DNA from: Actinotalea sp. JY-7876
GTDB lineage: Bacteria > Actinomycetota > Actinomycetes > Actinomycetales > Cellulomonadaceae
DNA length: 64,000 bases
Direction of reading: 5' to 3'
Assembly (NCBI RefSeq): GCF_014042015.1
Contig: NZ_CP059493.1
Location: 124,001-188,000, forward strand
A program made the position numbers and the translations under genes. Shown in pieces: positions 17,341-55,155 of the stretch; positions within the stretch are counted from its first letter, which is position 1, and every line of letters starts with the position of its first letter. The notes beneath the pieces are model-generated. The model ran no database searches. It was not told where the DNA came from and was given only the letters and a program-made list of their open reading frames with translations.

Positions 17341-17348
17341 GCGCTGTG

Positions 17349-25240: not shown

Positions 25241-25244
25241 ACCC

Positions 25245-25267
25245 GGCACCTGCTTCCCGCGGGTGCC
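25245..25267. terminator. Hairpin between convergent genes
   Basis: GGCACCTGC (25245-25253) pairs with GCGGGTGCC (25259-25267) around a five-base loop: nine pairs with one G-T wobble. It lies five bases after the exonuclease stop and about 27 bases after the stop of the convergent HNH gene. It could therefore end transcription from both sides. There is no clear T run. Confidence 0.5.
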
Positions 25268-25293
25268 ACGCCCCTATCGGCAGCGCGCCGTAG

Positions 25294-26178: not shown

Positions 26179-26280
26179 CGCGCGAGCTCACCATGAAATG
26201 GGCCGTGGAAACAGGGCCGGAAGGCTTATCGGCTCACGAAGTGCCATGTCGGTGCCGACGAGTCCCTGGGAGGTACTCAC

Positions 26281-28359: not shown

Positions 28360-28361
28360 GG

Positions 28362-29243: not shown

Positions 29244-29310
29244 CCTCCTGTCCCCCGCCGCAAGCACCGCTACCTGCACTTCAAGGCAGAAGTGATAGTA
29301 ACGTGGCGTT

Positions 29311-30540
29311 GTGTCCACAGATCCGCCCTCGGACCCGCTGCCCATCGACCCCGTCGAGTACGAGACGCACGAGTGGCTCGCGGAGGGCGATGGCTTGTCG
29401 AGCCGCGCCCAGGTCGCCGCCGGCTCGGGCGTCTATCAGTCCACGGTCCCAGCGAGCATCGCCGCGTACGCGCCGGCCCTACCGTCCGACCTGACCGCCG
29501 ACGTCGAGGAGGCGTCTGCGGCCCTCGCGCGGTTCGACGCGCACACCCGAGGCAGGCTCGGCACCGAGAGTCCCGCGCTGGGACCGATGAGCTCGATCCT
29601 CCTGCGCACCGAGTCGGCGTCGTCGTCGCAGATCGAGAACCTCACCGTGGGTGCGCGCCAGCTCGCCCTGGCCGAGATCGACCAGGCGTCGAGCGACAAC
29701 GCGCTGACCGTCGCCGCGAACGTCCGTGCCATGGAAGCGGCGCTCGCCCTCGCCGACTCGCTGGACGAGGCGGCGATCCTGCGGATGCATGCCGAGCTCA
29801 TGGCCGGTGAGCGCGGGTGGGAGGCCCACGCGGGCCGGTACCGCGATGGGCTCGTCTGGGTGGGCACCAGTGCGATCAGCCCTCGTGGCGCCTCGCACGT
29901 CGCGCCGCAGGCGCCGTTGGTGCCAGCCCTGATGAAGGACCTGATGGGGTTCGTGCAGCGCGAAGACCTGAGCGTCATCGTCCAGGCGGCGGTCGCGCAC
30001 GCGCAGTTCGAGACGATCCACCCCTTCTCCGACGGCAACGGCCGCACGGGGCGGGCACTCGTCCATGCGGTCCTGCGCGCCAAGAAGCTCATGCTGCACA
30101 CCACGGCGCCGGTCTCGGCCGGTCTGCTCACGGACACCCGGGCGTACTTCGACAGCCTGACCGCATACCGCGCGGGGGACGCACGTCCGATCGTCGAGCA
30201 GTTCGCGCGCGCGGCACGGTACGCGGCGACGTCGGGCGCGGCGCTGGTCGACGACCTCGCCGCGGAGCTCGACGCCGCGAGAGACGCGCTCGCCGGACTA
30301 CGCCCCCAGGCTGTCGCGTGGCGTGTGCTGCCTCACCTGATCTCGCACCCCGTGCTCAACTCCCGCTACCTCGTCCGGGACATGGGGATGACCGACACCA
30401 CGGCGCAGCGCGCGTTGCAGCAGCTCGCCGACAGGGGCGTCCTGGAGGAGCGCTCGGGGAAGCAGCGCAACCGCGTGTGGCAGCACAGCGGCATCCTGCG
30501 ACTCCTCGACGCGTACGCACAGCAGGTCCGACGCGGCTGA
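29311..30540 (+). CDS. Fic family protein (class II, AMP transferase type) with winged-helix C-terminus
   Basis: Predicted Fic enzyme of 409 residues that transfers AMP from ATP to a target protein hydroxyl. The active loop is complete: HPFSDGNGRTGR (237-248). An N-terminal inhibitory helix motif S-x-x-x-E-N (S105-E109-N110 in SSSQIEN) precedes the Fic core, as in class II self-inhibited Fic proteins. Residues about 340-409 (NSRYLVRDMGMTDTTAQRALQQLADRGV cut short here) form a winged helix, as in many chromosomal Fic/DUF4172-type proteins. The GTG at 29311 is preceded by TAGTAAC rather than a ribosome binding site, so the message may be leaderless. The target is unknown. Confidence 0.88.
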   Translation: MSTDPPSDPLPIDPVEYETHEWLAEGDGLSSRAQVAAGSGVYQSTVPASIAAYAPALPSDLTADVEEASAALARFDAHTRGRLGTESPALGPMSSILLRTESASSSQIENLTVGARQLALAEIDQASSDNALTVAANVRAMEAALALADSLDEAAILRMHAELMAGERGWEAHAGRYRDGLVWVGTSAISPRGASHVAPQAPLVPALMKDLMGFVQREDLSVIVQAAVAHAQFETIHPFSDGNGRTGRALVHAVLRAKKLMLHTTAPVSAGLLTDTRAYFDSLTAYRAGDARPIVEQFARAARYAATSGAALVDDLAAELDAARDALAGLRPQAVAWRVLPHLISHPVLNSRYLVRDMGMTDTTAQRALQQLADRGVLEERSGKQRNRVWQHSGILRLLDAYAQQVRRG

Positions 30541-30652
30541 CAGCTCAGGTCGTTCGCCATCGTCGTCGTGCCAATCGCGTGGTCAGGCCACGCTTGTGGA
30601 CAACCGTGGCCATCGGCCCGCTCCCGCCATGCTCCCGTTGGGGAGGTGGCGT

Positions 30653-30970
30653 ATGACCGGCGCGGGCGGGTTCGAGGTCGAGTACGACGAGGCGTGGGCG
30701 GCGGGTTCCGCCCTGCTGCAGGCGGGCGACGACGTCACCACCGTGGGACGCGCCGGCCTGCTCCTGGCCTCGGCCTCGTACGGCGACCGGACGCTGACCG
30801 CGGCGGCGCACCGCTTCGCGGACCGGTACACGCACCTGCTCGTGCAGGGCATGGGCGAGGAGGCGGTCGACGCGGGGGAGAACCTCCACGCGACCGTGCG
30901 GGACTACCGCGACAGTGACGTCCTCGCCCCGAGTTCCGAGCCCACGTCGAGCGGCGAGAACCTGCTGTGA
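30653..30970 (+). CDS. Small WXG-like helical partner of toxin 2
   Basis: Protein of 106 residues, mainly helical, with EYDEAWAAGSALLQAGDDV and AAAHRFADRYTHLLVQGMGEEAVDAGEN cut short here. It has no signal peptide. This is the size and helix pattern of the small ESX-like proteins encoded upstream of T7SS polymorphic toxins. The equivalent in the third locus is at 61356-61649, which it resembles in layout and in its GTGA overlap with the toxin gene. GGGGAGG precedes the ATG at 30653. I infer a role as co-secreted partner or chaperone of the adjacent toxin. Confidence 0.65.
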   Translation: MTGAGGFEVEYDEAWAAGSALLQAGDDVTTVGRAGLLLASASYGDRTLTAAAHRFADRYTHLLVQGMGEEAVDAGENLHATVRDYRDSDVLAPSSEPTSSGENLL

Positions 30971-32166
30971 ACACTGAGGTCCGGATCTCCGAGCTGTGGA
31001 CGACCAACGACCCTGAGCTGCTGGTGCCGGGCTCCCTCGAGGCGCTCCACGGCGATGCCGACGACCTCGAGGTACGCGCTGACACGCTGCTCGAGGCCGC
31101 TACCGACATCGGACGGCACGTGGTCGCGAGCTGGGTGGGCGACGCGGCGGACGGCTGGGCCGGGTGACGAGCCGTCCTCGAGGAGTCGCTGCGCGCGGTC
31201 GCCGGCGTCTTCCGTGCCGCCGCGATCGTGCTGCGAGCGCACGCGGACGTGCTGTCCTGGGCTCGGGGCCAGGCCGGCGAGGCAGCAGACCTGTGGGCCG
31301 CGGCGCGGCTGATGTGTACGGAGCCCGTGCCGTCGACGCGTGGGGCCCGCTCACGCCTGCCGGAGCGGGTCGCCCTGACCGTGCCGACCCTGGAGTACGA
31401 CTCTGGTGCGCTGAACGCAGCCCAGGCCATGCTCGACGACGCGCGGGCCGCGACGCGCGCGTCGGCGCAGGAGACGGCACGCCTGCTCGACGAGCTCAGC
31501 GCGGACCTGCCCGACGGCGCCTGGCACACGGGCCAGTTCTTCCTCAACCTCGGCCGTTGGGTCGGCACCGTGTTCGTCCACCTTCCGCTGGTCACGACGG
31601 TCCGGGTCTTCGTGGACCGTGACGGCTTCATGGAGGAGAGTCGGGCCCCGAACGAGGCCCTCGGCGAGGCGGTCGACGTTCTGCTCACGGATCCCGACCA
31701 GGTCGTCCCGGTGCTGCTCGACACCCAGACGCTCGAGGACAACCCGGCGGCGTGGTGGGGCGGGATGGTGCCGGACGCGGCGCTGTCTCTCGCAGGTGCG
31801 GGGGCCGCATCCCGGGTCCTACGCGCAGGGCGTCCGAGCACCACGGGCGCGCCGGCCCGCGGCTTCATCGTCGAAGCAGGCGCAGTGCCGAGACCGGCGC
31901 GTCCGGCTGGGAGTGCGCCGAAGGCGCCGGCAATCTTCCTGACGCCCACCAACCCGCCGCAGCTTCCGCCGAGCAGCGTTCGTGACGGATTTGCGCTACG
32001 AGTGATGCGCCCTACAGACCAGTACCCTCACGGGTACTGGCGACTCGACAATCCGTCTGGCCAACCGGTCGATCCGACCACGGGCCTGCCGCCCGGCAAC
32101 CTGACGCGGGCGCAGTTCCGCGCTCGCACGCACGTTCCGTTGCCCGAGGGATACTGGGAGAGTTGA
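30967..32166 (+). pseudogene. Polymorphic toxin 2, split by an in-frame TGA
   Basis: Starts with a GTG overlapping the partner stop (GTGA). After 66 codons, in WVGDAADGWAG, a TGA (31165-31167) interrupts the frame. The same frame then continues without a shift for 332 codons (RAVLEESLRAVAGV onward) to 32166. The two parts together give a 399-position protein with the layout of toxins 1 and 3: a WXG-like N-terminal hairpin (bend WVGDA at the break), a helical middle with RAHADVLSWA (compare DGHADVIAWA and ERHADTIAWA), and a toxin tail. The tail has YPHGYWRLDNPSGQPVDP and ARTHVPLPEGYW. CGA or GGA would restore the codon. It may be a true nonsense mutation or a base error. Restart at GTG 31228 would lack the N-terminal signal. 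Confidence 0.75.
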
Positions 32167-32522
32167 TGTACGGACTTCCTGCGGCAACCGACCTCAGTGC
32201 CTTGAACGGCTTAATTCTCCTCCAGGTCTGCGTCGGCCAGAATGAGGTTATCCTCCGCTTCGACGACACCTCGTGGATCAGGGTCGAGTCGGCTATGCGC
32301 CTGGTGCCCAACGGTGCAACCCCAATTCAGGAGCAGGACGGCGTGCTGAGAGAGCTCTTTGCCGCCCTCGGGGCGCCCATCGAGGCCGTCCAGTGGACCG
32401 TCGAGGGAACGGTCCGGATCAGATTCCAGGGACGTGACGCTCACGTTGAAATCGTGGACGACGATCCGCACTATGAGAGCTTCATGATTCAACTCAAAGA
32501 TCAGCCGGCGATCGTCGTCTGA
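32166..32522 (+). CDS. DUF6188-like immunity protein, first copy
   Basis: Beta-rich protein of 118 residues. It starts MYGLPAATDLSALNG, then LLQVCVGQNEVILRFDD, a hallmark of DUF6188 proteins, which occur behind toxin genes in actinobacteria. The end, HVEIVDDDPHYESFMIQL, matches the second copy at 32963. The ATG overlaps the toxin stop by one base (TGATG), so it is the immediate and presumably cognate immunity gene of toxin 2. A TTG one codon earlier is less likely. Soluble, with no signal peptide. Confidence 0.75.
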   Translation: MYGLPAATDLSALNGLILLQVCVGQNEVILRFDDTSWIRVESAMRLVPNGATPIQEQDGVLRELFAALGAPIEAVQWTVEGTVRIRFQGRDAHVEIVDDDPHYESFMIQLKDQPAIVV

Positions 32523-32574
32523 CTAGGAACGTGCGAAATGGCTTTCGCAATTGAACCGTCTTCGGAGGCGGCTG

Positions 32575-32946
32575 ATGGGCGCTGTGAAGAGCGGTAGCGA
32601 CCACAGGGAGATGGTGCTCGAGCTGATCGACGGGATGACGGCGCCGGACCGGCGGCGACGGGAGCGCGCAGCCGACGAGATCACGGACGTCCTCGACGGG
32701 TACTCCGAGGAGGAGGCATTCGTCGTCTCATGCGTCCTCGCGACCCTAGCGCGCCGCGAGGACGACGAGGCCTGTCTAGAAGCGGAGCTGCATACGCTCA
32801 CCATCATGGCGGAGAGGGGGGGGGTGCTTCATCGCTCGGTACTGGAGCATGTGCTCGCCATCGACCGGAGCGCTCTGCGTGGCTCGTGCATCGACTACTA
32901 CGACTACTTCCTAGGGCTGCGCGGTTCGGACTGGGGGCAGGTGTAA
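32575..32946 (+). CDS. Small helical protein between two DUF6188-like genes
   Basis: Protein of 123 residues. Helical and acidic segments (HREMVLELIDGMTAPDRRRRE cut short here, YSEEEAFVVSCVLATLARRED, EAELHTLTIMAE) suggest a HEAT-repeat-like fold, common in immunity proteins. The ATG at 32575 follows GGAGG by six bases. A TTG eight codons upstream gives a longer frame without support. It sits between two related immunity genes, so it is most likely an immunity protein for another toxin tail. I recognise no named family. Confidence 0.6.
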   Translation: MGAVKSGSDHREMVLELIDGMTAPDRRRRERAADEITDVLDGYSEEEAFVVSCVLATLARREDDEACLEAELHTLTIMAERGGVLHRSVLEHVLAIDRSALRGSCIDYYDYFLGLRGSDWGQV

Positions 32947-32962
32947 GAATGGTGCAAACCTG

Positions 32963-33316
32963 ATGTACGGCCTTCCCCCATCGACCGATCTCAGCGCCTT
33001 GCGGGGCCTGCTTCTCACTCAGGTCTGCGTCGGGCAGCACGAGGTGAATCTCAACTTCGAAGGCGAATGCCGGATCATGGTCACGTCGACGTTCGTGATG
33101 CACTCTGGCGGCCGTGAGACAAGCGATCGGAGCGAAATCCTGACCGAGTTCATCGCGAGCCTCGGGAAGGCCATCCAGAGCGTCGAGTGGAACGTCGCGG
33201 GGACGGTCCGCCTGCGTTTCGCGGGCCGTGCCGCGACTATCGACATCCTTGACGACGAACCAAATTACGAGAGCTACGAGATCCAGTTCAAGGACCGACC
33301 TCTGATCGTCGTCTAG
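32963..33316 (+). CDS. DUF6188-like immunity protein, second copy
   Basis: Protein of 117 residues, paralogous to 32166-32522 over its full length: MYGLPPSTDLSALRG, LTQVCVGQHEVNLNFEG, FIASLGKAIQSVEWNVAGTV and ILDDEPNYESYEIQFKD. The copies differ throughout, so the duplication is not recent or has diverged under selection for specificity. It lies 16 bases after the helical gene. It may neutralise a relative of toxin 2 carried by competing strains. Confidence 0.72.
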   Translation: MYGLPPSTDLSALRGLLLTQVCVGQHEVNLNFEGECRIMVTSTFVMHSGGRETSDRSEILTEFIASLGKAIQSVEWNVAGTVRLRFAGRAATIDILDDEPNYESYEIQFKDRPLIVV

Positions 33317-33354
33317 ATCCCGTCGCGAGACGCCGGCCCCCCGGAGACAGCCCC

Positions 33355-33602
33355 GTGCGCATCGACCCGATGTCGGCACCCGCCGACCAGGAGTTCCTCG
33401 AGGAGTTCGGCGTCACCCCGGAGCCGATCGACGAGTACGGCGGCCGCCTCCTTCGCTTCAACAACGAGGCTGACGAGCGCCTCGACCTCTCGTTCGACCT
33501 CACGGACCAGTCCGTCGCCTACCGATGGTGGTCCTGCTGTCCATCGAGATCCATCCCCGCGTCGTGGTCCGCGACCGTGTGCTGCGCGGCGGCGCCACGT
33601 AG
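33355..33602 (+). pseudogene. Frameshifted small protein, probable immunity relic
   Basis: From the GTG at 33355 the frame gives a plausible soluble N-terminus (DQEFLEEFGVTPEPIDEYGG, then LRFNNEADERLDLSFDLTDQ). After SVAYRW it becomes Cys/Ser/Arg-rich nonsense. In the next frame, from 33525, VVLLSIEIHPRVVVRDRVLR continues as a normal beta strand pattern and stops at 33602. The simplest reading is a frameshift near 33525 in a gene of about 83 codons. Alternatively the sequence has an indel error. It ends the immunity row of the second toxin locus. Confidence 0.55.
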
Positions 33603-33690
33603 ACCTGTGTGCCGCCCGGGCCGCCCGCGCCGCGTGTCAGCCGCTCCCCGTACCCTGCGCTGAACCCCAACCCAGGGAGCGCACCCCCGC

Positions 33691-36600
33691 ATGTCGACGC
33701 TCGACACCCCGCTGACGGACTCCGAGCGCCTCGGCCGCGGCCTCGCGCTGCTCGGCACCGCGCTCCAGCCGTGGGTCGACGCGGAGATGTCAGCGGCCGC
33801 GCCTGCCGACCAGGACTGGGCAGCCGTCTACGGGGCCTCCGAGTCCGCCCGCCGCGGCCACGCCGTCACGGTCGACCCCCGAGAACCGCGCACCCTCCTG
33901 CGGATCGTCCGCCACACGCGCGACGTCTTCCCGCTCGAGCCCGCGCAGCACGCCTGGCTCGACCAGCTCATCGCGGCGACCAACCGCTGGGCGCACGTGC
34001 CGGACCTCGACCGCGCGGAGGTCGACGACGTCCTCGACACCATGGCCCTGCTGTTCGAGTCCCTCGCGATGGACGACGCCGCTGCGGAGGTCCGCGCCCT
34101 GCGCCCCGCCGCCCAGCCGCCCGCGCCCACCACCCCGCAGGACGACGACGTCGTCTCCCTCGCCCCCGCCCGCACTCAGACCCCACCCGCCCCCGGCTTC
34201 CGCCACCTCACCACCGCCGTCGGCCCGCTCGACGTCACCGTCACCTACCGCGAGGCGCTCAACTACGCCCTCGTCACCAACCGCGTCTCCCCGGTCCTCG
34301 GCATCCGCCTCACCAACCACGGCACGGCCCCCGCCGACCCCGGCCCCCTCAGCCTGACGATCGAGCCCTGGACCGACACCCACGTCGCCGAGCCGCTGGT
34401 CGTCGGGCCCGGCCTGGTCGCCCCCGGCGAGACGATCGACGTCCCCACGCACCTCACGGCCTGGCAGCTGAGCCCGTCGGCCTTCGTCCACCTCGACGAG
34501 TCGATCACCACCCGCCTGACGCTCACCCTCGGCGACGCGCAGCAGACCGACCTCATCCGCCTCCTGCCGCCGGACGAGTGGTGGGCCGCGTCCATCCCCG
34601 AGGCCCTGGCCGCGCACGTCCGCCCCAACGACGCCGCCGTCGCCGCGCTCCTCGCCGAGGCCGCCCAACGACTCCAGGCCGCCACCGGACGCGGCGCGCT
34701 CGACGGCTACCAGGGCGGCGAGGAGCGCGCGGTCGCCATCGCCCGCGCCGTCTACGAGGCGATGACGGCGCGCGAGATCCGCTACATCCAGGCCCCGGCG
34801 TCGTTCGAGGGCACCGGCCAGCGCATCCGCTCGCACGGCGAGGTGCTCGACGGACGCTGGGGCAACTGCCTCGACCTCGCGTGCGCCTACGCGGCCGCAC
34901 TCGAGTCCGCCGGCCTGCATCCCGTGATCGTCACCACCCGCAACCACGCCGTCGCGGGCTACCTCGTCACCGACAGCCAGCTCCCGCTCGTCGCGGTCAG
35001 CGACCCCGGCACCATCGGCCTGCTCATGGACGCCGGCGTCGTCGAGACCGTCGAGCTCACCGGTGCCACCGCGGCGATGCCGTTCGACGACGCCCTTGCG
35101 GCCACCGACCCGTGGTGGACCCGACGCCTCGACGAGGTGAGCCACGTGCTCGACGTCGTCGCCGCGCACCGGCGCGTGCGGCCGCTGCCGACCGTGCGGC
35201 GCGACGGCGAGACGGTCGTCGTCGAGGTGGAGGTCGAGCGTGCCGAGGCCCGCCGGCGGATCCGCGGCGAGACGACGCCCGCGATGCCCGTCGAGGACCG
35301 GCCCGTGCGCATCGAGGCGTGGCGGCGCTCGCTGCTCGACCTCACCCTGCGCAACCCGCTGCTCAACCTCGCGGCCGCGCGCAGCGGCGCGCCGGTCCAC
35401 GTGCCGCACGGCGCGCTCGCGACGCTCGAGGACCTGGTCGCTGGCGGCCAGACCCTCACGCTGGTCCCGCACGACCAGATCGAGCAGATCCATGTCCAGC
35501 AGGGCGCGCGCTCGGCGCAGGACATCGACCCCGACGTCGTCCGCCGCATCCTGGTCGAGGAGTCGTGCGCCTACGTCGGCCTGGCGACCGCCGCGTACGC
35601 CGCGCGCATGCGGAGCCTGTCCCGGCGCGCGCGCACCGCGATCGAGGAGACCGGCGCCAACAACCTCTACCTCGCCCTCGGCGCGCTGACCTGGACCGAG
35701 CGCAGCAAGACCGTCCGCGCACCACTGTTCCTCGTCCCCGTCACGCTCGTCGGCGGCCGCGGCGCGCTGTGGCGCCTGCGCATGGACGAGACCGGCACGA
35801 TCGTCCCCAACCACTGCCTCATCGAGAAGCTCCGCGTCAGCCGCGGCATCGTCGTGCCCGAGCTGCTCGACCCCGGCCAGGACGGCGAGGGCATCGACCT
35901 GCCGCGCGCGCTCCAGGCCGTCCGCGCCGCGATCCTCTCCAGCGGGCACGGCGACTTCGCGCTCGAGGAGACCGCGACCGTCGCGATGTTCGCGTTCTCC
36001 ACGCTCGAGATGTGGAAGGACCTCACGGAGAGCTGGCGGTCGTTCGTCGAGCGCCCCGTCGTCCGGCACCTCGTCGAGACACCCGGCGTCCCGTTCCTCG
36101 ACGCGGCGCCTGAGCCCGCGCCCGACCCCACCGCCGAGGCCACGACCTTCCTGCCCGTCCCCGCCGACGGCTCGCAGATCGAGGCCGTCCGCTGGGCGCG
36201 CGCCGGACGCTCCTTCGTGCTCGAGGGCCCGCCCGGCACCGGCAAGTCGCAGACCATCACCAACCTCATCGCCGACTGCCTCGCGCACGGGCGCAGCGTC
36301 CTGTTCGTCGCCGAGAAGCAGGCGGCGCTCGACGTCGTCAGGCGCCGCCTGGACGACGTCGGCCTCGGTGTGTTCAGCCTCGACCTGCACGGCCGCAACC
36401 AGACGATCAGCGCCGTGCGCGCCCAGCTCCAGGCCGCGATCGGGCACGACGCCGAGCGCTCCGCCTCGTGGGAGACCCTGCGCGACAGCTACCGCTCGCT
36501 CACCGACAACCTCAGCCGCTACCCCCGCCAGCTCCACGACGAGGGCCCGGTCGGGCTGTCCGCGTGGGACGCGCGCCAGGTCGCCCTGAGCCTGCGCGAG

Positions 36601-39600
36601 CGCGCCGACGTGCCCGACGACGCCCTCCCGCAGCTCCCCACGACGCTCGTCCTGGGCGCGGTCCCGGCGGCGGACGTGTACGACGCCGCCCGCGACCTCG
36701 CCCACGCGCTGCACGACCTGGGCGGCGCGCCCGCCGCGCACCCGTGGCGCCTCGCCGGGCTCACCGGCCCCGAGGCCGTCGTCCCGCAGCGCGTCGCCGC
36801 GGCCGTCGACGAGGTGATCGCGGCCGACGCCGCCCTCGCGGCCTCGCCCCTGCGGCCGCTGCTCGACCTCGCGACGACGCCCGAGCAGGTCGACCACGTC
36901 GCGGAGTGGCTCGACGCGAGCGCGGGGGAGCGGCTCGCGCCCACCGCCGAGGCGCGGCGGCTCGTGGGCCCGGGCTGGGCCGAGCATGCCGAACAGGTCC
37001 GGCAGGCGTTCGACCAGCACCGCGCCACCTACGCCGGCGCGCTCGGCCCGTTCGCGCCCGCCGTCATGGCGCTCGACCTCGACGCCGCGCTCGCGGCCTC
37101 GACCGCGGCCGACGCCTCCTTCTTCCTCGGCCGCGGCAAGCGTCGGCGCGCCGCGCTCGCCCTGGTCGCGGGCGCCGTTCGGCCGGACGCCGAGGTGCCG
37201 CTCAAGCAGCTCACCCCGCTGCTCACCGGACTGGTCGCTGCCCGCGCCGCGGGGGAGCGGCTCGCCCAGCACATCGGGGCCCTGCCCGGCCTGCTGCTGC
37301 CCTTCGGCTGGAACCCCCTCGACGTCGAGGCGCACGTCCCGGTCGAGCACGCGATCCGCCGGTGGGGCGCGACCGCCGACCTCGCCCGCCTGGGCGGCCG
37401 GGCCGTGGACGACGCGACCGAGGCCGTCGTCGACCGCGCGCACGACCTGCCATGGGGCACGGTCGAGGCGATCCGCCGCCTGGCGGCCGCGTGGCACGAC
37501 GCGGCCTCCGCGCTGCGCGCGACCCCGGAGGACCTCGCCTCCTGGCTCGCGGGGCGAGGCCTGTCGGCCGGGCTCGCCGCCGACGGCCCGCGGTGGCAGG
37601 CCGACGCGCGCTCCGGCGCCCTCGTGCAGCTCCAGCGCTGGGCGCGCGTGCGCGGCGCGATCGCGGCGTTCGACGCGTGGGGAGCCCCCGACGTCGGGCG
37701 CCTGGTCCGCGCCGGCGTCCTCGACGGGGACCGCGCCGAGGACGCCGTCCGCCTCGCCTACGCGCAGACGGTCGTCGCCGAGCGGCTCGACGCCACCGGT
37801 CTGCGCACCTTCGACGAGCGCCACCGCTCGCGGCTGACGGGCCGGTTCCTGGACACGGGAGAGGACGTGCGCGAGCGCATGCGCGTCGAGCTGCCCGCGC
37901 GCATCGTCGCCGCCCGCACCTTCGACCCGCGGGCCCGCGCCGGCCGCAGCGCCGAGCTCATGGCGCAGCTCGGCCGCCGCCGCGGCGGCCTGACGATCCG
38001 CCAGCTGCTCGCGCGCTACGGCTCGATCATCACCGAGGTCACGCCGTGCCTGCTGATGAGCCCGAGCTCGGTCGCCCGCTTCCTGCCGACGGACGGCACC
38101 GGGTTCGACGTCGTCGTGTTCGACGAGGCGTCGCAGATCCGCGTCGCCGAGTCCGTGGGCGCGATGGGCCGCGGCGCGTCGGTGATCGTCGTCGGCGACT
38201 CCAAGCAGATGCCGCCCACGTCGATGTTCGACTCCGCGCCGCCGAGCGAGGGCGACCCCGTCGAGGACGTCACCGTGCCCGCGGACATGGAGAGCATCCT
38301 CGGGGAGGCCAAGGAGTCCCGGCTGCCGAGCCTGTCGCTGACCTGGCACTACCGCAGCCGCGAGGAGTCGCTCATCGCCTTCTCCAACCGCGCCTACTAC
38401 GACAACCGCCTCGCGAGCTTCCCGACGCCGCCAGGCCGCCGCGAGGGTCTCGGCGTCTCCTGGCGCAAGGTCGACGGCGTCTGGGAGGGCGGCGCCCGCG
38501 GCGCCCGGGTCAACCGCGCGGAGGCCGCCGCGGTGCTCGACGAGGTCGCGGCGCTCCTGCGGCAGGACGCGCAGCGGTCGATCGGCGTCGTCACGTTCAA
38601 CACGCAGCAGCGCGAGCTCGTCCTCGACCTGCTCGAGGGCTCGGGGGACGCGCTGATCGAGGCGGCGCTCGCGCGCGAGGAGGAGCCGCTGTTCGTCAAG
38701 AACCTGGAGAACGTCCAGGGCGACGAGCGCGACGTCGTCATCTTCACGCTCGCGTTCGCCAAGGACACCCGCGGCCGGGTGCCGCTCAACTGGGGCCCGC
38801 TGACGCGCAGCGGCGGGGAACGCCGGCTCAACGTCGCAGTGACGCGTGCCAAGGAGCGCGTCATCGTGCTCTCGTCGTTCGAGCCGGAGGAACTCGATCT
38901 GTCCGGCTCGTCCTCGCGGGGCCTCGCGGACCTGCGCGACTACCTCGTCCTGGCCAAGCACGGTGCCCGGCGCGCCGGCCTGGTGCGCGAGCGAGGGCGG
39001 GACCTGCACCTCGACGAGGTCGCGGCCGCCCTGCGCGACGCCGGGCTGGAGGTCCTCACGCATGTCGGCCTCTCGGACTTCACGGTCGAGCTCGCGGTGC
39101 GCGCGGCGCCCGACCTGCCGTGGGTCGCCGTGCTCCTCGACGGTCCCGCCTGGGCGCGCCGTACCACTGTCACCGACCGCGAAGGCCTCCCGCGCACCGT
39201 GCTCGAAGGCGCGATGGGCTGGGCGCGCGTGGTGCGGGTGTGGCTGCCGACCTGGCTGCGCGAGCCCGACGCCGTCGTGCACGCGGTCGTGGAGGCGGCC
39301 CGCCGCCCGGAGGCGCGCGAGCCGGCGCTCGCGGTGCGCCGCGCGGAGCCCGAGCACGTCGCGGTCGGCATCCAGGACACCGGGGCCTTCGGGGAGACGG
39401 CGCCGATCCAGGACACCGTCGTCGGTGTCCCGGACAGCGCGACGGTGCAGGACGTCCAGGACCTCGCGCCGCCCCCGGACGCCACGGCCCCGGCACCCTC
39501 GGGCACCGCCTACGTGCCCGCGTCCGAGGAACCACGCGGCACGGTCACCGTCCTCGACAACCTCCACCGCGCGCACGACCGCAAGCGCGTCGTGATCGAG

Positions 39601-40056
39601 ATCGACGACGTCCTGGCAACCGAGGGCCCGATGCTCATGGACCGCCTCGTCGGCGTCGTCGCCCGGCGCTTCGGACTCACCGCGGTCCGCGAGGCGCGCC
39701 GCCGGAGCCTGGCCGCCGTCGTCCCGCCCGACCGCGTCGAGCACGCGCCCAACGGCGACGTCGTCGTCTGGCCGCACGGCGCCGACCGCCGCACCTGGGC
39801 CCTGGTCCGCGTCCCGCACGTCGGGGGGCGCGACCTCGCCGAGGTGGCCTACCCCGAGCTCCGCGCCGCGATGGTGCACATCGCACGCGGCGCCCACGGC
39901 ATCGGGCGCGAGGACCTGCTCCGCGCGACCGCGCAGGTCTTCGGCGTCGCCCGCCTCGCGTCGAGGACCCGCCCCCGCCTCGAGGCGGTCCTGGCGGCCG
40001 CCCTCGACGAAGCCGCTCTGATCGAGCGCGACGGCCTCGTGGTGGCCGCCCCGTGA
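33691..40056 (+). CDS. Giant HEPN / transglutaminase-like / DUF4011-type SF1 helicase with DUF3320 end
   Basis: Protein of 2,121 residues. Residues 1-135 fit a Swt1-type HEPN domain (TNRWAH at 97-102, the R-x-x-H position of HEPN ribonucleases). About 370-445 holds a transglutaminase-like core (GNCLDLA Cys393, RNHAVAGY His419, SDP Asp438). About 540-830 matches the DUF4011 module (WRRSLLDLTLRNPLLNL). A COG1112-type SF1 helicase follows: Walker A GPPGTGKS 846-853, FDEASQI with DEAS 1478-1481, VGDSKQMPPTS, LTWHYRSREESLI, NVQGDERDVVIF and NVAVTRAKERVIV. The C-terminal 450 residues contain DUF3320-like sequence. The expected MTES_1575/Vsr-like nuclease between helicase and DUF3320 looks weak or degenerate. 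The gene is coupled (GTGA) to 40053-40871. Related helicases occur in defence islands. Confidence 0.82.
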   Translation: MSTLDTPLTDSERLGRGLALLGTALQPWVDAEMSAAAPADQDWAAVYGASESARRGHAVTVDPREPRTLLRIVRHTRDVFPLEPAQHAWLDQLIAATNRWAHVPDLDRAEVDDVLDTMALLFESLAMDDAAAEVRALRPAAQPPAPTTPQDDDVVSLAPARTQTPPAPGFRHLTTAVGPLDVTVTYREALNYALVTNRVSPVLGIRLTNHGTAPADPGPLSLTIEPWTDTHVAEPLVVGPGLVAPGETIDVPTHLTAWQLSPSAFVHLDESITTRLTLTLGDAQQTDLIRLLPPDEWWAASIPEALAAHVRPNDAAVAALLAEAAQRLQAATGRGALDGYQGGEERAVAIARAVYEAMTAREIRYIQAPASFEGTGQRIRSHGEVLDGRWGNCLDLACAYAAALESAGLHPVIVTTRNHAVAGYLVTDSQLPLVAVSDPGTIGLLMDAGVVETVELTGATAAMPFDDALAATDPWWTRRLDEVSHVLDVVAAHRRVRPLPTVRRDGETVVVEVEVERAEARRRIRGETTPAMPVEDRPVRIEAWRRSLLDLTLRNPLLNLAAARSGAPVHVPHGALATLEDLVAGGQTLTLVPHDQIEQIHVQQGARSAQDIDPDVVRRILVEESCAYVGLATAAYAARMRSLSRRARTAIEETGANNLYLALGALTWTERSKTVRAPLFLVPVTLVGGRGALWRLRMDETGTIVPNHCLIEKLRVSRGIVVPELLDPGQDGEGIDLPRALQAVRAAILSSGHGDFALEETATVAMFAFSTLEMWKDLTESWRSFVERPVVRHLVETPGVPFLDAAPEPAPDPTAEATTFLPVPADGSQIEAVRWARAGRSFVLEGPPGTGKSQTITNLIADCLAHGRSVLFVAEKQAALDVVRRRLDDVGLGVFSLDLHGRNQTISAVRAQLQAAIGHDAERSASWETLRDSYRSLTDNLSRYPRQLHDEGPVGLSAWDARQVALSLRERADVPDDALPQLPTTLVLGAVPAADVYDAARDLAHALHDLGGAPAAHPWRLAGLTGPEAVVPQRVAAAVDEVIAADAALAASPLRPLLDLATTPEQVDHVAEWLDASAGERLAPTAEARRLVGPGWAEHAEQVRQAFDQHRATYAGALGPFAPAVMALDLDAALAASTAADASFFLGRGKRRRAALALVAGAVRPDAEVPLKQLTPLLTGLVAARAAGERLAQHIGALPGLLLPFGWNPLDVEAHVPVEHAIRRWGATADLARLGGRAVDDATEAVVDRAHDLPWGTVEAIRRLAAAWHDAASALRATPEDLASWLAGRGLSAGLAADGPRWQADARSGALVQLQRWARVRGAIAAFDAWGAPDVGRLVRAGVLDGDRAEDAVRLAYAQTVVAERLDATGLRTFDERHRSRLTGRFLDTGEDVRERMRVELPARIVAARTFDPRARAGRSAELMAQLGRRRGGLTIRQLLARYGSIITEVTPCLLMSPSSVARFLPTDGTGFDVVVFDEASQIRVAESVGAMGRGASVIVVGDSKQMPPTSMFDSAPPSEGDPVEDVTVPADMESILGEAKESRLPSLSLTWHYRSREESLIAFSNRAYYDNRLASFPTPPGRREGLGVSWRKVDGVWEGGARGARVNRAEAAAVLDEVAALLRQDAQRSIGVVTFNTQQRELVLDLLEGSGDALIEAALAREEEPLFVKNLENVQGDERDVVIFTLAFAKDTRGRVPLNWGPLTRSGGERRLNVAVTRAKERVIVLSSFEPEELDLSGSSSRGLADLRDYLVLAKHGARRAGLVRERGRDLHLDEVAAALRDAGLEVLTHVGLSDFTVELAVRAAPDLPWVAVLLDGPAWARRTTVTDREGLPRTVLEGAMGWARVVRVWLPTWLREPDAVVHAVVEAARRPEAREPALAVRRAEPEHVAVGIQDTGAFGETAPIQDTVVGVPDSATVQDVQDLAPPPDATAPAPSGTAYVPASEEPRGTVTVLDNLHRAHDRKRVVIEIDDVLATEGPMLMDRLVGVVARRFGLTAVREARRRSLAAVVPPDRVEHAPNGDVVVWPHGADRRTWALVRVPHVGGRDLAEVAYPELRAAMVHIARGAHGIGREDLLRATAQVFGVARLASRTRPRLEAVLAAALDEAALIERDGLVVAAP

Positions 40057-40871
40057 GCAGCGCCGTGGCCGACGCCCCGGCGGAGGTCGCCCAGCCGCAC
40101 CTCAGGCTCGAGGTCACCCTGGGGGTGACCGCCCTCGCGATCGAGCACCCGCCCGCCATCCAGCACGCCCTCGCGTGGCTGACCCGCCACACCACGGTCG
40201 CAGCGAGTCCCGAGGCTGCCGTCGGCGCGGTCCTCTACCGGGACGAGGTGCTCGTCATGCGTGCCCTCGGTGCACGCCTCCTCGCCATGCTCGCCGAGCT
40301 GCCACGGGCCTCGACGACGGCCTGCAGGGTGCACCCCCGGTGGGCGGAGGTCGTGTGCGCCGCCCGGCGGGCGCGCTCGGTGATCGACCGCAACGGCGGC
40401 ATCCGGCTTCCGCAGGCCGGCCTCCTGGCGTGGCTCGCGGACCCTCCGCTGCGCCGTTCCCCCGACGCCGACGGGAGGCACGGCGCGACGGCCGACGACG
40501 TCAGCCGCCTCGTCCTGGGCATGGCGGACGACGCGGGCCTCTGGGAGATCGAGTCCGACCTCAGCGTCTACTTCTTCGGCATGGGCGAGGCGGTGCTTCG
40601 GCGGGCGATCGTCGAGGTGGTCGCAGGGTTGGTCCGTGCCGGCCTGCTCACCGTCGAGCGGCATGTCTGGGCCGACGTCGACCTGCACCCGGTCCCGGAC
40701 GCCGAGCTGGCGACCGTGCTCGACGACGACCGCTACTGGACGGCGCCGGACCACGGCGACCCGGCGCTCGCGATCAACGCGACCGAGGCGGGCCACGCGC
40801 ACCGCAGGGGCCCGGCGCGCGGCACCTTCCCGCGCCCGGGCAGCCCTCCGGCGACGACGGCTCACCGCTGA
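40053..40871 (+). CDS. Fusion of two immunity-like domains, coupled to the giant helicase
   Basis: Protein of 272 residues starting with a GTG that overlaps the helicase stop (GTGA). Residues about 25-125 resemble the SCO4402-like protein at 62815-63204 (PEAAVGAVLYRDEVLVMRAL against PEAMVGVTVFADEVAVLGHL; RNGG at the end of both). Residues about 155-255 resemble the toxin 1 partner at 15914-16285 (DDAGLWEI, GLLTV, VPDAELATVLDDDRYW, LAINATEAGHAH, GPARG). The two relatives sit directly behind two related toxins. The fusion could be a double immunity protein, or both families may instead share a binding role used with the helicase. The C-terminus is Pro/Thr-rich. Confidence 0.7.
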   Translation: MSSAVADAPAEVAQPHLRLEVTLGVTALAIEHPPAIQHALAWLTRHTTVAASPEAAVGAVLYRDEVLVMRALGARLLAMLAELPRASTTACRVHPRWAEVVCAARRARSVIDRNGGIRLPQAGLLAWLADPPLRRSPDADGRHGATADDVSRLVLGMADDAGLWEIESDLSVYFFGMGEAVLRRAIVEVVAGLVRAGLLTVERHVWADVDLHPVPDAELATVLDDDRYWTAPDHGDPALAINATEAGHAHRRGPARGTFPRPGSPPATTAHR

Positions 40872-40961
40872 GGTGACGCGGCAGCGTCGCTATCCGACGC
40901 TCACGCGCCCCCTGCCCCTACCTGCTTCCGCTGATCGCCCCGCAGCGCGCTCCGGCCCCTG

Positions 40962-41861
40962 TCATCCCAGCCAGGTGGTCGATCGTCGCGCGGCCTCGAA
41001 GACGCGGTCGATCGCCTCGAGATCGAGGACCTCCGGTCGTCGCTCGAGCCACTTGCCGATGGCCCTTCGGTAGACCACGTGCGCACCCTCCGGCGCCTTC
41101 TTGATGGTGATGTCGGCTGCGCCCACCGGGACGACCACGCCGACCGCCTCGACAGGGACGCCGGCGGCCGCGGTCAGGAGCCTCGACGCGCGAGCCGCCT
41201 CGTGGCGGCTGTTGCGCAGGTACGGCTGCTTCTGACCGTTGACCATGAACGTCGTGCCCGCGACCCAGATCTTCGCGCCGGGATGGTGCTTGGCGTTCAG
41301 CGTGAAGACTCCGCCCGGGCCGATCACAACGTGATCGATGTCAGATCCGTTCACGCCGACCGGCACTGCGTGGAGCGCACGCCAGCGCGCGTCCTTCTTG
41401 ACCAGCCTCGCGAGACGGGCCGCGACCATCTCCTCACCGTCCGCGCCGATCCGCCACGCCCGCTCGTCGGTGTGCACCCGCAGGACGCGCGCGACGAACG
41501 TCCGCACCGGCGCGGCGTGCTTGAGAGCGATCGCCTGTTCGCGGGCCGCTTGGCCGGCTCGTCGCTCGGCGAGGTCGTTCCAGACCGGCTCCTGCGCCGC
41601 CACCGACGACTCGGTGATGACCGTGACCCCGGCGTTCGTGGACGGCGCGGGGGAGGCCTGCTGAGCTGGTTCCGGGACCGCGGCGCGCCAGCCCGCGACG
41701 GCTGCCTCCACCGCTGCACGGTCGGCGTCGTCGTCGACGGTGACGACCCCGGTGGCCAGGTCGCACCATCCCATCCGTCGCTCGTCAGGAGCGGTGACGT
41801 AGAGGCGGTCCTTCCCGTACTTGCGCCACCGCACGACGCTCAGCTCCCTCAGATCGCTCAT
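40962..41861 (-). CDS. Stand-alone NERD-domain protein
   Basis: Protein of 299 residues. Residues about 135-250 form a NERD nuclease-related domain: IGADGEEMVAARL, SDIDHVVIGPGGVFTLNAKHH and KQPYLRNSRHEAARASRLL. The N-terminal part (VVRWRKYGKDRLYV, then GWCDLATGVVTVDDD) looks like a small beta domain. A usual NERD acidic residue before the lysine is Asn here (LNAKHH), as in several stand-alone actinobacterial NERD proteins. GGGGGAG precedes the ATG at 41861, which is preferred over an upstream frame start. It converges with the helicase partner gene. Action on DNA ends or modified DNA is an inference. Confidence 0.8.
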   Translation of the reverse strand: MSDLRELSVVRWRKYGKDRLYVTAPDERRMGWCDLATGVVTVDDDADRAAVEAAVAGWRAAVPEPAQQASPAPSTNAGVTVITESSVAAQEPVWNDLAERRAGQAAREQAIALKHAAPVRTFVARVLRVHTDERAWRIGADGEEMVAARLARLVKKDARWRALHAVPVGVNGSDIDHVVIGPGGVFTLNAKHHPGAKIWVAGTTFMVNGQKQPYLRNSRHEAARASRLLTAAAGVPVEAVGVVVPVGAADITIKKAPEGAHVVYRRAIGKWLERRPEVLDLEAIDRVFEAARRSTTWLG

Positions 41862-42034
41862 GGTCTCCCCCTGGTGTTCGCGCCGAGCGCCGACGCGATA
41901 GCGCTCGCGCCGTTGACGCGGCATCGACATCCCCGGGGTTCGACGTGACGGCGTGCACGTCAGGTCACCCGTTCGGCGCATCACCGGCCCCGCCGGCCGT
42001 GCCGCTCATGCCACGGCAGCGGGTGCCGCTCTGC

Positions 42035-43105
42035 TCACCCCTGCGATGCGGTCACGTGGGCGACGCGCCACCGGGCGCCGTCGTGCGTCACGGTGATCGC
42101 GTAGTACCAGTGGCGTCGCGTCGGTGAGGAAGGGCCCTCGTCATAGACGGCGAGGCGGCTCAGGTCGGTCCCCTCGACCAGGTGGAAGTTCACCATGACC
42201 CAGGTGTCGGAGGCGCCGCCAGGCATCGCCGACGCGACGACGACGCGGTCGTCGGCTGGCGTCGGCGACGTCCGCCATTGCGCGAGCGCGTCCTCGATCA
42301 ACGAGCCACACGTCTCGCAGGACGGGTCGGTGAGGTCACGCATCGCGACGTCGTCGCCCGTCGCCCGCACGTATCGGTCGAGGTGGGCGTAGTGGGCGGC
42401 GGTGCTGATGCCGTCGCTCCAGCTGTCGCTGTCGAGCTCCGTCGGCGGTCCGCTGTAGGCGGCAGCCAGGGGTGGCCCACCGTCGGGCCCCGGCCTCTGG
42501 ACGGTCGCGGAGTCGAGTCCGCGCAACATCCAACGGCCCTCCTCGAGCACGACGGCGGCCGCCACCGCGTAGGTCCCACCCGGGCCCGTGTCGACGACGG
42601 TGCCGTGGGCGTCGAGCTCCTGGCTCGGCGTCGTGACGACGCGACCCAAGACGGAGAAGAAGTCGTCACTGACACGGATCGCGTGCGCCACGTGCAGTCG
42701 CGAGGTCGCCCCGCTGGGCACCCGACCTTCCGCGTGGGCGGCGCGAGCCTGCTCCGCGACGTGCGCGCAGTACCCGCACTCGGGGTGGCTGAGCTGCTCC
42801 CAGGCCTGCAGGTCACCGGTGTCGTGGGTGTAGTCGGCAACCGCCAGCGCGTACTCCAGGAAGATGCCGCCCGACTCGTCGGCGGTGACGTCCAGCTGGG
42901 CGGGTGGCTCCGGCCGCACCGTGTGGTGCACCAGCTCGGGCGCCTTGTCCCGCGCCTCGTCGACGGTGAAGACGGGTACGGCCGGCTCGCTAGGGCGCGG
43001 CACTGGCGATGGTGCGGCATTGCCGCATGCGACGAGCGCCACCGCGAGCACGGCGGCGCCGACCGCCGCGAGCCGATGGCGTTCGGTCCTGGGCGAAAGG
43101 CGCAT
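42035..43105 (-). CDS. Lipoprotein with two DUF6318-like domains
   Basis: Protein of 356 residues with a lipoprotein signal (VLAVALVAC, Cys27) and a short Pro-rich linker. Two similar domains follow. The first has LEYALAVADYTHDTGDLQAW and HPECGYC. The second has HYAHLDRYVRATGDD and DPSCETC. Each domain therefore carries the CxxC seen once in the duplicated lipoproteins at 11571-12170 and 13498-14097. A second, internal duplication of the same module can explain this. The domains end with NTF2-like strands (GRWMLRGLDSA and ARWRVAHVT). The function is unknown; it should sit on the outer membrane face. The ATG at 43105 fits the signal peptide. Confidence 0.75.
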   Translation of the reverse strand: MRLSPRTERHRLAAVGAAVLAVALVACGNAAPSPVPRPSEPAVPVFTVDEARDKAPELVHHTVRPEPPAQLDVTADESGGIFLEYALAVADYTHDTGDLQAWEQLSHPECGYCAHVAEQARAAHAEGRVPSGATSRLHVAHAIRVSDDFFSVLGRVVTTPSQELDAHGTVVDTGPGGTYAVAAAVVLEEGRWMLRGLDSATVQRPGPDGGPPLAAAYSGPPTELDSDSWSDGISTAAHYAHLDRYVRATGDDVAMRDLTDPSCETCGSLIEDALAQWRTSPTPADDRVVVASAMPGGASDTWVMVNFHLVEGTDLSRLAVYDEGPSSPTRRHWYYAITVTHDGARWRVAHVTASQG

Positions 43106-43268
43106 GTCGGGCACCGTAGGCCAGGGCAGTGGTCCTCGGAGTGCCCTGTGGACAACTGTCCGACCCGTCCCGTGGGGCTCCCGGCGGTAGCCGTGCAGGG
43201 CGCCGCCCGCGCACCTCTCCTCCTTCCGGCCGATCAGCCCTACCCACCGCTGCCCTTCCATCGGTGAC

Positions 43269-43374
43269 GTGCCGAACCATCTGGCGCGCGACCTGCACGA
43301 CACGGTCGCGCACCACGTCTCCGCGATCGCCGTGCGCGCGCAGGCCGGACTCGCCGTCGCGCCCTCGGTACCGC
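43269..43374 (+). pseudogene. Sensor histidine kinase fragment (HisKA_3 dimerisation helix)
   Basis: The frame encodes LARDLHDTVAHHVSAIAV followed by RAQAGLAVAPS. This is the phospho-acceptor helix of NarL/LiaS-type kinases (R-x-L-H-D-T-V-A-H-H). It has no sensor part before it and no ATPase domain after it; similarity ends at about 43365. It starts near a GTG in an intergenic region and so is a relic, not a gene. Confidence 0.7.
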
Positions 43375-43455
43375 GGCTGGATGATCCGCGCCTACGCGCT
43401 CGGCCAGGGCGCCGGGACGCACGTGTTCGTGCTCGGCGGCGGGGAGCCGCCCGCC
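43369..43455 (+). pseudogene. DUF2306-like membrane protein fragment
   Basis: Immediately after the kinase relic, in the next frame, YRGWMIRAYALGQGAGTHV is encoded, then FVLGGGEPP. This resembles the conserved W-M-x-R-x-Y-A-x-x-x-G-A-x-T segment of DUF2306 membrane proteins. Those genes often neighbour two-component systems in actinobacteria. Only about 29 codons remain before the end of the convergent SUKH gene. I regard it as a second relic from the same lost locus, less certain than the kinase part. Confidence 0.45.
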
Positions 43456-43958
43456 TACCAGTACTTCTCGCCCCCGCTCGCGAGGAACCGCCACAGGACG
43501 CCCGCCAGTGACCCCTGGAGCACGGGCCAGTCCTCCCGAGGGAGGAGCGGCTCGGCCACCCGCAGCTGCCAGCCGCCGGACCCGTCGACGCTCGCGATCA
43601 GGAGATCGGAGTCCCCGAGGAACTCGGCGATGACGACGTCGTGCGGTCGGAGCTCGTCGGGGCGCGCGATGCGCTCGTGCGCGGTGCGCCTGGCGCTGGC
43701 GGCCGGCGAGAGGATCACCATCCCCCACTGTCCGTAGTCCACGTCCTCGAAGAGCCTGGCACCTCGGGTCAGCGACCAGAGCTCGCGCAGTTCGTCTGGC
43801 GCGTGCTCGGGCACGGTGGCGGCGATCTCGTGGGCTGTGGCGGGCGGCTCGAGAGTGCTCGCGAGCCGGAAGCCGGAGTCGTCGTAGCGCCGTGGCTGGC
43901 CGAGCGCGGCGAACCTCGCGAGCAGGCGTCGCAGGTCCGGCGCGAGTGCCTCCGTCAT
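43455..43958 (-). CDS. SMI1/KNR4 (SUKH)-family protein, partner of the macro-SIR2 protein
   Basis: Protein of 167 residues with the SUKH pattern. An N-terminal helix precedes DDSGFRLASTL and ELRELWSLTRGARLFEDVDY, then MVILSPAASA, then an acidic strand region (HDVVIAEFLGDSDLLIAS) and EPLLPREDWPVL near the end. SUKH proteins are the largest immunity superfamily in bacterial toxin systems. The ATG at 43958 overlaps the stop of the SIR2 gene (ATGA), which indicates fixed co-translation. It probably inhibits or regulates the SIR2 effector, though a plain SMI1-like role cannot be excluded. Confidence 0.72.
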   Translation of the reverse strand: MTEALAPDLRRLLARFAALGQPRRYDDSGFRLASTLEPPATAHEIAATVPEHAPDELRELWSLTRGARLFEDVDYGQWGMVILSPAASARRTAHERIARPDELRPHDVVIAEFLGDSDLLIASVDGSGGWQLRVAEPLLPREDWPVLQGSLAGVLWRFLASGGEKYW

Positions 43959-45535
43959 CCGGCCCCCACCTCGCCGAGCGCGTCTGCCAGCCGCCGCCAC
44001 GCCGCCCGCTCCGCCTCGGGCAGCGTCTCGATGCGTCGTCGCAGGTCACGAGCCTTCTCCGCCACCTCGCGCTCGCGGTCGCTGAGGAGCGCCGCGTACC
44101 GCTCGTCGGCGAGGTACTGCGCCGGCGTCGCGTGCATCGCGACCGCGTCAAGGAAGATCGCCAGGCGCCTGGCCCGCACGCCGGGGCCGGCGCCGTTGTC
44201 GTGCGCGACGGCGACGTAGTCGAAGCGGCCTTCCCACAACCGCCGCGTCGCCTCGTCGGCGGAGAACGTGACGACCGTGCCGAGAGCTGTCCCCCGCCGC
44301 CGGTCGGACGCGAGCGGCGTGCTGCCGGCCCGGAACAGCAGCACCTCGTGCGCGATGCGCAGGAAGTTGTCGTCCGTCATCGAGGCCCCGACCGCCATGA
44401 GGTGCTTGGTCATGAGCAGCGACTGCACGACGGCGCCCATAGGCCCGGACTGCGCGTCGTAGCCCACGAAGTCCGACCGTGACAGCACGATCGTCTCGGG
44501 GAACCGCGCGTCGCCGTGCATCTTGAGCAGCCACGGGGCGCCCGGCATCGTCAGGTTAAAGGGGAGCACCGCGAGGTGCTCCTGGCCGGTGTCGTGCACG
44601 GCACGCTCGTAGAGGTCGTCGTAGTTGGTGGTCACTGCCTCCGCGCACCCCAGCGACGCGAGCAGCGCGTGCGACAGGCCGTACCGGCCGTCCCCGCGGG
44701 TCAGCTCGGCGACACGCTCGCCGAGCCGCTGCTCGCCGAGCACGCGCCGCAGCAGCTCGGACTGGTCGAGCGGCGACCGGACGGTGCCGAGGTCGACGCC
44801 GGCGTCCTGCGCGAGCCGCCCGATGAGCTCGCCCCACGACGGCAGTCCCGCCGACATGCTCACCCCCGCGCCGATGAAGAGCGCCAGCGACCCCTCGGTC
44901 ACGCGGGCGGCGAGCGCCTCGGCGTCGCGCAGCAGGCCGGGAGGCAGGTGGTCGGCGTGACCTCCACCGAGAAGGCGGCGTCGCGCCTGGAACGCCGCGT
45001 GGTCCGCCGCGTCCGCCGCGGCGACGACGACGTCGATCCCCCCCGAGTGCGCCGCAGCCAGGCAGGTCGCGAGCAGCGCGTCGACGACGTCGCCCCGCAC
45101 TGCCCCGAATCCGCCGCGCCCGACGCCGAGCGTGGGCACGGCCACCACGGGCCGCGGCCGGTTCCCGCCGGGTCGCAGCTGGGCGTGGTCGATGTCCGCG
45201 AGGACGGCGGCCAGCCGGTCGACCATGGGCCCGACGGCGTCCGCTGCGCCCGCCAGCCCGCGGCCGTTCGCCGCGTCGACGAACCAGACCGGCGACCGCG
45301 GGCGCAGCACGGACGACTCCCGTGCCCGGCCCCAGCCGGCGTCGGCCCAGCCGTGCGGCCGGAGCGCCCCGACGTCCCGACGCCACGCGGCCGCGCCGGT
45401 GTCGTCACGCCGACCGAGCGCCGCCGCCCACCGCTCGCCGACCGAGAACGCCCGGTCCGTCGGCACGACGACGGCGTCGTGGTCCAGGTTCTCCACGCGC
45501 CCGTGGACCACGAAGACGTGTCCGTCCCCGGTCAT
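43955..45535 (-). CDS. Macro-like domain fused to SIR2 family NADase-type domain
   Basis: Protein of 526 residues. Residues 1-180 fold like a macro domain (DHDAVVVPTD; VVAVPTLGVGRGGFG; GIDVVVAAAD), which could bind ADP-ribose or NAD products. Residues 210-460 are a SIR2-like domain of the SIR2_2 kind: LALFIGAGVSMSAGLPSW (220s), VTTNYDDL (301-308) and KMHGD with the presumed catalytic His340, plus GASMTDDNFL. It lacks the zinc cysteines of deacetylases, as in antiviral SIR2 NADases. A helical C-terminus follows. SIR2 domains deplete NAD in several phage-defence systems. It is translationally coupled to the SUKH gene. No ribosome binding site is visible, so it may be leaderless. Confidence 0.8.
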   Translation of the reverse strand: MTGDGHVFVVHGRVENLDHDAVVVPTDRAFSVGERWAAALGRRDDTGAAAWRRDVGALRPHGWADAGWGRARESSVLRPRSPVWFVDAANGRGLAGAADAVGPMVDRLAAVLADIDHAQLRPGGNRPRPVVAVPTLGVGRGGFGAVRGDVVDALLATCLAAAHSGGIDVVVAAADAADHAAFQARRRLLGGGHADHLPPGLLRDAEALAARVTEGSLALFIGAGVSMSAGLPSWGELIGRLAQDAGVDLGTVRSPLDQSELLRRVLGEQRLGERVAELTRGDGRYGLSHALLASLGCAEAVTTNYDDLYERAVHDTGQEHLAVLPFNLTMPGAPWLLKMHGDARFPETIVLSRSDFVGYDAQSGPMGAVVQSLLMTKHLMAVGASMTDDNFLRIAHEVLLFRAGSTPLASDRRRGTALGTVVTFSADEATRRLWEGRFDYVAVAHDNGAGPGVRARRLAIFLDAVAMHATPAQYLADERYAALLSDREREVAEKARDLRRRIETLPEAERAAWRRLADALGEVGAG

Positions 45536-49940: not shown

Positions 49941-50148
49941 GCGTGCCAAAAGTCGATGCCATTTGTCGGCGTTCTTGGTGGGTGTCCTGCTTTCGGTGGG
50001 GTGCTTGTCGGGGGCGGACGACGTGGTTGAGACGAATGTTTAACGTCAGTTGACATTTGATCGATGCCAGATTCAACTGGCCCCTTTCGGGGGGTCGCTT
50101 CGTGTGTTGGTTTCTCTGCCCTTTCGGGGGTGGGTGACTATAGACATC

Positions 50149-55137
<4,989 letters not shown>

Positions 55138-55155
55138 ACACTCTTACTTGTGCTA

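Follow-up and report, generated by a model that had tools for sequence, protein, structure and literature searches.

The question raised by the 64,000-nucleotide stretch of Actinotalea sp. JY-7876 analysed here (contig NZ_CP059493.1, positions 124,001 to 188,000, hereafter the window) is whether a very large helicase gene (A) and the small gene that overlaps its end through the tetranucleotide GTGA (B) form a functional pair. The original prediction, made from the sequence letters and translated reading frames, answered that they are a coupled pair and a candidate undescribed conflict system, in which B would restrain an effector carried by A or sense a toxin or phage signal. The analysis supports a different explanation, which is probably the correct one: A is a self-sufficient defence protein of the ProA family and B is a stray immunity gene.

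The identity of A is carried by the NCBIfam model NF058533, annotated as anti-phage protein ProA, which matches A with 1608.6 bits (curated cut-off 1500) over residues 191-2088 and covers model positions 1-1903, the full length of the 1903-position model. The PADLOC candidate model PDC-S37 also matches A (876.6 bits). A is almost certainly a member of the ProA family, an MTES_1575-type giant, and is predicted to be a single-gene anti-phage protein; the NCBIfam family name and PDC-S37 are consistent with the defence role already proposed for it. The passage dealing with such proteins in a 2013 paper (PMC3710099) describes giants such as MTES_1575 with an HEPN domain of the Abi2/Swt1 family, a transglutaminase, a superfamily I (SF-I, SF1) helicase, a Vsr restriction endonuclease (REase) and two winged helix-turn-helix domains. 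These giants come without modification genes, and the same passage proposes that they cleave DNA, with ribonuclease (RNase) suicide and protein cleavage as extra lines of defence. As far as tested, the domains of A and their order are identical to those set out there, and the protein type of A was therefore already published. The claim of an undescribed system had to be withdrawn, given this architecture and a score over the ProA cut-off. A DUF4011 SF1 helicase and a nuclease part are also common to A and Hhe (NCBIfam NF042953 and PADLOC Hhe). Membership of A in Hhe was considered and rejected, with an NCBIfam score of 561.3 bits, far under the cut-off of 2000, and 387.7 bits for the PADLOC Hhe model.

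Pfam recovers the HEPN_Swt1 domain that had been read at the N-terminal end of A, as well as the COG1112/DUF4011 helicase, through AAA_11, AAA_12 and DUF4011. Residues were counted in 102 aligned rows, comprising A and 101 homologues longer than 1650 amino acids (aa) from a total of 112 distinct proteins. The Walker lysine K852 and the DE pair at 1478-1479 (D1478, E1479) are invariant in 102 of the 102 rows, which agrees with the intact motifs reported earlier, and the Protein Data Bank (PDB) sequence matches of this helicase are SMUBP-2, UPF1 and NAM7. The identity of the transglutaminase-like domain comes mainly from its fold, as seen in the AlphaFold2 model and by structural alignment. Regarding the Cys393/His419/Asp438 set proposed for this domain, the transglutaminase-like fold and the first two residues stand, with C393 and H419 both kept in 89 of the 102 rows. 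Of those 89 rows, 78 have an acidic residue in column 438; this column varies within A's own clade, which leaves the identity of the third triad residue uncertain. The MTES_1575 REase domain, which the original prediction had missed, is matched by PF18741 (E 2.5e-12, 47.1 bits, cut-off 38.2), and its acid columns carry D in 100 (column 1817) and 99 (column 1829) of the 102 rows. Residue 1800 of the REase domain (window 39088-39090) is E in A and in Actinotalea solisilvae and D in most relatives. The region around residues 167-294 is assigned to a fold class only, since many unrelated beta-sandwiches match it structurally; a Foldseek search with residues 1-535 of A ranked beta-sandwich matches first. 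No match to DUF3320 was found in A up to E 1, in a search of Pfam only that bears on the C-terminal winged-helix region.

The HEPN domain of A lacks the catalytic motif R-x4-6-H. Residues 95-102 read AATNRWAH (T97 to H102 at 33979-33996), with His102 kept and Thr97 at the Arg position, and with A95, A96 and T97 an R-x4-6-H motif ending at H102 is impossible. A family hidden Markov model built from 14 rows identified HEPN in 19 of the 112 proteins at the chosen threshold. Eighteen of these 19 (L163 was omitted as too short) and 20 hand-picked others make up a 38-row tree, calculated from residues 540-1880 only, in which the clade of A has a Shimodaira-Hasegawa-like approximate likelihood-ratio (SH-aLRT) support of 97. 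The Arg is absent from all 11 HEPN-bearing rows of this clade (A itself has T, and the remaining ten have G, S, T, L or A), nine of which keep the His, and is present in all seven HEPN-bearing rows outside it, six with RNxxAH and the seventh without His. Three of the 19 rows with HEPN, L031, L063 and L084, have a degenerate motif region that lacks the His. The pattern fits a loss of RNase activity within one clade, with the domain retained for another use. On this sequence evidence the HEPN of A, cast in the original prediction as an RNase effector, is probably not an RNase, the Arg of the motif being absent. In the passage on MTES_1575-type giants in PMC3710099 the HEPN is called active and suicidal RNase action is proposed, whereas the clade of A has lost the HEPN Arg. 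A could still follow that proposal if another Arg or a partner subunit completed its active site and made it an abortive-infection effector, a reading favoured by the persistence of N98 and H102 in A and of the His in most Arg-less rows; with the motif Arg missing clade-wide and A, A and T at 95-97, this is unlikely.

A mechanism leading from helicase to nuclease is plausible if tentative. The SF1 helicase and DUF4011 region would load onto DNA (or RNA) that is foreign or abnormal, translocating along it with ATP, and this movement would license cutting by the Vsr-like nuclease near the C-terminal end of A. The transglutaminase-like Cys/His domain may be a second, proteolytic effector or a gate, and the Arg-less HEPN of the clade would serve in dimerisation, RNA binding or regulation and not in RNA cleavage. 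B would be read through from the transcription unit of A and would take no part in its action. We infer this order of events from the domains and from the proposal made for MTES_1575-type giants in PMC3710099.

Homologues of A were collected from 120 regions, to which a scan of a genome collection contributed its best 80 loci; 114 regions contain an A homologue, and 111 of these are non-identical to A and to one another. The closest homologue among the best 80 loci kept is that of A. solisilvae (78%). B was found beside none of the 111 other homologues; the downstream sequence reaches at least 1 kb in 98 of these loci and at least 3 kb in 94. With phmmer, no open reading frame (ORF) of at least 60 aa in the 120 regions matched B up to E 10. 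With tblastn, no B match under E 0.6 was obtained in the 111 loci or in the pieces of A from a second genome of the genus (G499), and in the controls five loci with known B relatives were recovered at E 0.007 or better. When 14 genomes with B-family matches were queried for A, only the own genome and G499 carried it. A different recurring partner downstream of A was also sought by clustering six-frame ORFs within 5 kb of the A homologues, and was rejected: the seven clusters spanning at least four loci held at most three downstream members. The region of A and B (28300-45400) has no Rfam match, so no RNA element was seen there. The original prediction had itself counted homologues in which the second gene never adjoins the helicase as evidence against a coupled pair, and the 111 homologues and G499 are of this kind. 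A and B are most likely not partners, and the A-B operon is not conserved.

The first 553 residues of A have matches in 21 of the 198 genomes searched from the order and in 28 of the 200 from the family, own genome included, with some of these genomes matching only the HEPN part within other proteins. Among genomes seen in the family survey, A is present in 3 of 19 of the genus, and no two of the three have the same genes directly after it. The A stop codon of A. solisilvae is followed 2 bp later by the start of a DUF429 gene (L049:16434-17303), after which come a small gene and a toxin-like gene, the latter homologous to window gene 31228-32166; tight coupling at the end of A is thus also seen with an unrelated gene. 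In G499, A is split over two contigs, with the 3' part (residues 1302-2113) on a different contig from the 5' part. After this 3' part come genes homologous to 30596, 31228, 32163/32963 and 33355 of the window. The gene types found downstream of A in G499 therefore sit upstream of A in the window. The alignment of the three loci breaks directly after the A stop codon; a brief segment immediately before the A start looks common to all three. Given the differing downstream genes and the end of the alignment at the stop codon, A behaves as a self-contained unit within a variable site of type VII secretion system (T7SS) toxin and immunity genes.

The composition of B points to T7SS toxin and immunity genes. 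The GTGA overlap was confirmed, as was the earlier observation that B is built from two families standing behind toxins elsewhere in the window; each family is found there singly behind T7SS_signal proteins. The N-terminal half belongs to the SCO4402/DUF7945 family, with NF047838 barely over its cut-off (50.7 bits, cut-off 50) and Pfam DUF7945 under its own (20.9 bits, cut-off 27). In the alignment, a stretch of approximately 16 aa common to most relatives is missing from this half, so B may be decaying. The unfused form of B is seen on contig C373 of G499, where the genes after that for a T7SS_signal protein are, in order, one B-N gene, a shorter copy of B-N and a B-C gene whose start overlaps by ATGA. 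On contig C54 of the same genome, a toxin-like gene precedes one for a 293-aa protein with a B-N domain as its C-terminal half. The B family is rare, being found in 4 of 396 genomes of the order and 2 of 19 of the genus. DUF7945 occurs in 10 of 296 genomes searched from the phylum, and a single genus accounts for 8 of the 10. The B-family neighbourhoods examined are those in the own genome, G499, G292 and G321. B has no match in plasmid or phage collections, and no literature was found on SCO4402. Fusions of immunity domains are named polyimmunity proteins, and polyimmunity loci of polymorphic toxin systems are described, in Zhang et al. 2012 (PMC3482391). Like the proteins named there, B joins two unrelated immunity-like families and lies beside an array of small immunity-like genes; unlike them, it follows a defence gene and has no cognate toxin next to it on the A side. 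From its sequence and setting, B is most likely a stray, orphan polyimmunity protein from a T7SS toxin cluster in which two neighbouring immunity genes fused, and its protection, if any, is probably directed at toxins of kin or neighbours.

Several points weigh against this account of A and B. The ProA score of A exceeds the cut-off by only 7%, the HEPN domain (16-124) lies outside the ProA model, which begins at residue 191, and the anti-phage activity predicted for A goes back to NCBI's label, no primary ProA paper having been found. Some other residue could stand in for the missing HEPN Arg. Many of the 111 A homologues are distant (approximately 30% identity) and are less informative on B than close ones. 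The B relatives in two genomes (G292 and G321) have no homologue of the window's toxins nearby, so the B family is not always toxin-linked. B lies on the transcript of A by position, with an intact frame and normal codon use, and may have gained a use there.

These last features, with the GTGA overlap, speak for A and B as a true two-gene system of this lineage, in which B would restrain the peptidase or nuclease of A, or free A once a signal from a toxin or phage is bound to B. Tight binding of effectors is established for immunity proteins, and a pairing found in one genome can be a recent innovation. The lack of any B match at the 111 homologues and in G499, the different genes after A in three genomes of the genus, the unfused B halves behind a T7SS toxin and the lack of any recurring downstream gene make such a system rather improbable. 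Little probability is given to B as a regulator with a PadR-like winged helix as its C-terminal half, which would adjust how strongly A or the array is expressed by binding DNA or a ligand: the PadR-like shape match at its Z score may reflect a common arrangement, Foldseek with B returned nothing at E <= 0.001 (best E 1.6), and the C-half family occurs as a separate gene behind toxins, usually read as immunity. It is very improbable that a polyimmunity protein was captured by a ProA-type gene as a brake or sensor, so that binding of B by a T7SS toxin from a neighbour, or by a product of a phage, would unleash A. The explanation retained is that of a self-sufficient A followed by a stray B.

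Table 1. Coordinates in the window of genes A and B, their domains and associated toxin and immunity genes.
Feature	Residues	Window coordinates	Strand	Basis or remark
Gene A		33691-40056	+	Single ORF, 2121 aa; ProA-family protein
HEPN_Swt1 domain	A 16-124	33736-34062	+	Pfam PF18731, E 1.3e-10, above cut-off; alignment; six-helix model
Beta-sandwich	A ~167-294	34189-34572	+	AlphaFold2 model and structural alignments
Transglutaminase-like cysteine peptidase domain	A ~298-496	34582-35178	+	C393/H419
DUF4011	A 548-714	35332-35832	+	Pfam, 2.7e-30
SF1 (UPF1/SMUBP2-like) helicase core	AAA_11 from A 826, AAA_12 to A 1729	36166-38877	+	Pfam AAA_11 and AAA_12, with insert
MTES_1575 / Vsr-like REase domain	A 1775-1869	39013-39297	+	Pfam PF18741
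Gene B, fused immunity-like (polyimmunity) protein	272 aa	40053-40871	+
B N-terminal half, SCO4402/DUF7945 family	B 32-111	40146-40385	+	NF047838; alignment
B C-terminal half, unnamed family	B 146-259	40488-40829	+	Family common to 15914-16285
Small gene before toxin-like gene		30596-30970	+	No Pfam match; A is followed by homologues in both A. solisilvae and G499
T7SS toxin-like gene a short way upstream of A		31228-32166	+	Homology to A. solisilvae protein
Four small immunity-like genes (32163, 32551, 32963, 33355)		32163-33663	+	Two match DUF6188
T7SS_signal toxin		14781-15917	+	Followed by 15914-16285, relative of B C-terminal half
T7SS_signal toxin		61646-62818	+	Followed by 62785-63204, relative of B N-terminal half

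The genes directly upstream of A belong to the toxin and immunity array (Table 1). The small gene before the toxin-like gene is one that we take to be WXG100-like by its position only. The toxin-like gene product itself has no Pfam match, and its residues 1-214 are homologous to a protein of A. solisilvae that scores 24.5 bits for T7SS_signal, under the cut-off of 27. Two of the four small immunity-like genes that follow have homologues behind a toxin in G499. The cluster at 14781-17759 is composed of a T7SS_signal toxin and small immunity-like genes, the last of which is a strong CdiI_3 match. The cluster at 61646-63607, which continues past the window end, encodes a T7SS_signal toxin, DUF7945 and more immunity-like genes, and includes a 265-aa protein with the B-N domain as its C-terminal half.

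Convergent with B is a gene for a NERD-domain protein (40962-41984, reverse strand). G499 encodes a copy of it that is 64-68% identical, and the contig with this copy carries neither A nor B within the 16 kb read. A Schlafen-group-3-type helicase, an RNase_T/BRCT exonuclease and a NERD-UvrD helicase are clustered at 21932-28359, and the A. solisilvae locus has, shortly before A, a gene 92% identical to the last of these. A complete rRNA operon lies at 50147-55332 (16S 50147-51664, 23S 52033-55140, 5S 55216-55332) and accounts for a local drop in G+C content. No tRNAs were found in the window.

For this locus, the claim of a new system gives way to a giant A that belongs to a named defence family, and an overlapping start and stop codon is by itself not proof of partnership. 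Defence genes and T7SS toxin and immunity arrays occupy a common variable site in the genus, where fused immunity genes can land behind a defence gene. What appears to be new is a whole clade of giants whose HEPN domain lacks the catalytic Arg, and in this clade the HEPN may be a structural or sensing part. If B did act as the brake or sensor of A, with the HEPN turned into a dimerisation or RNA-sensing part, a single operon would connect contact-dependent warfare with phage defence.
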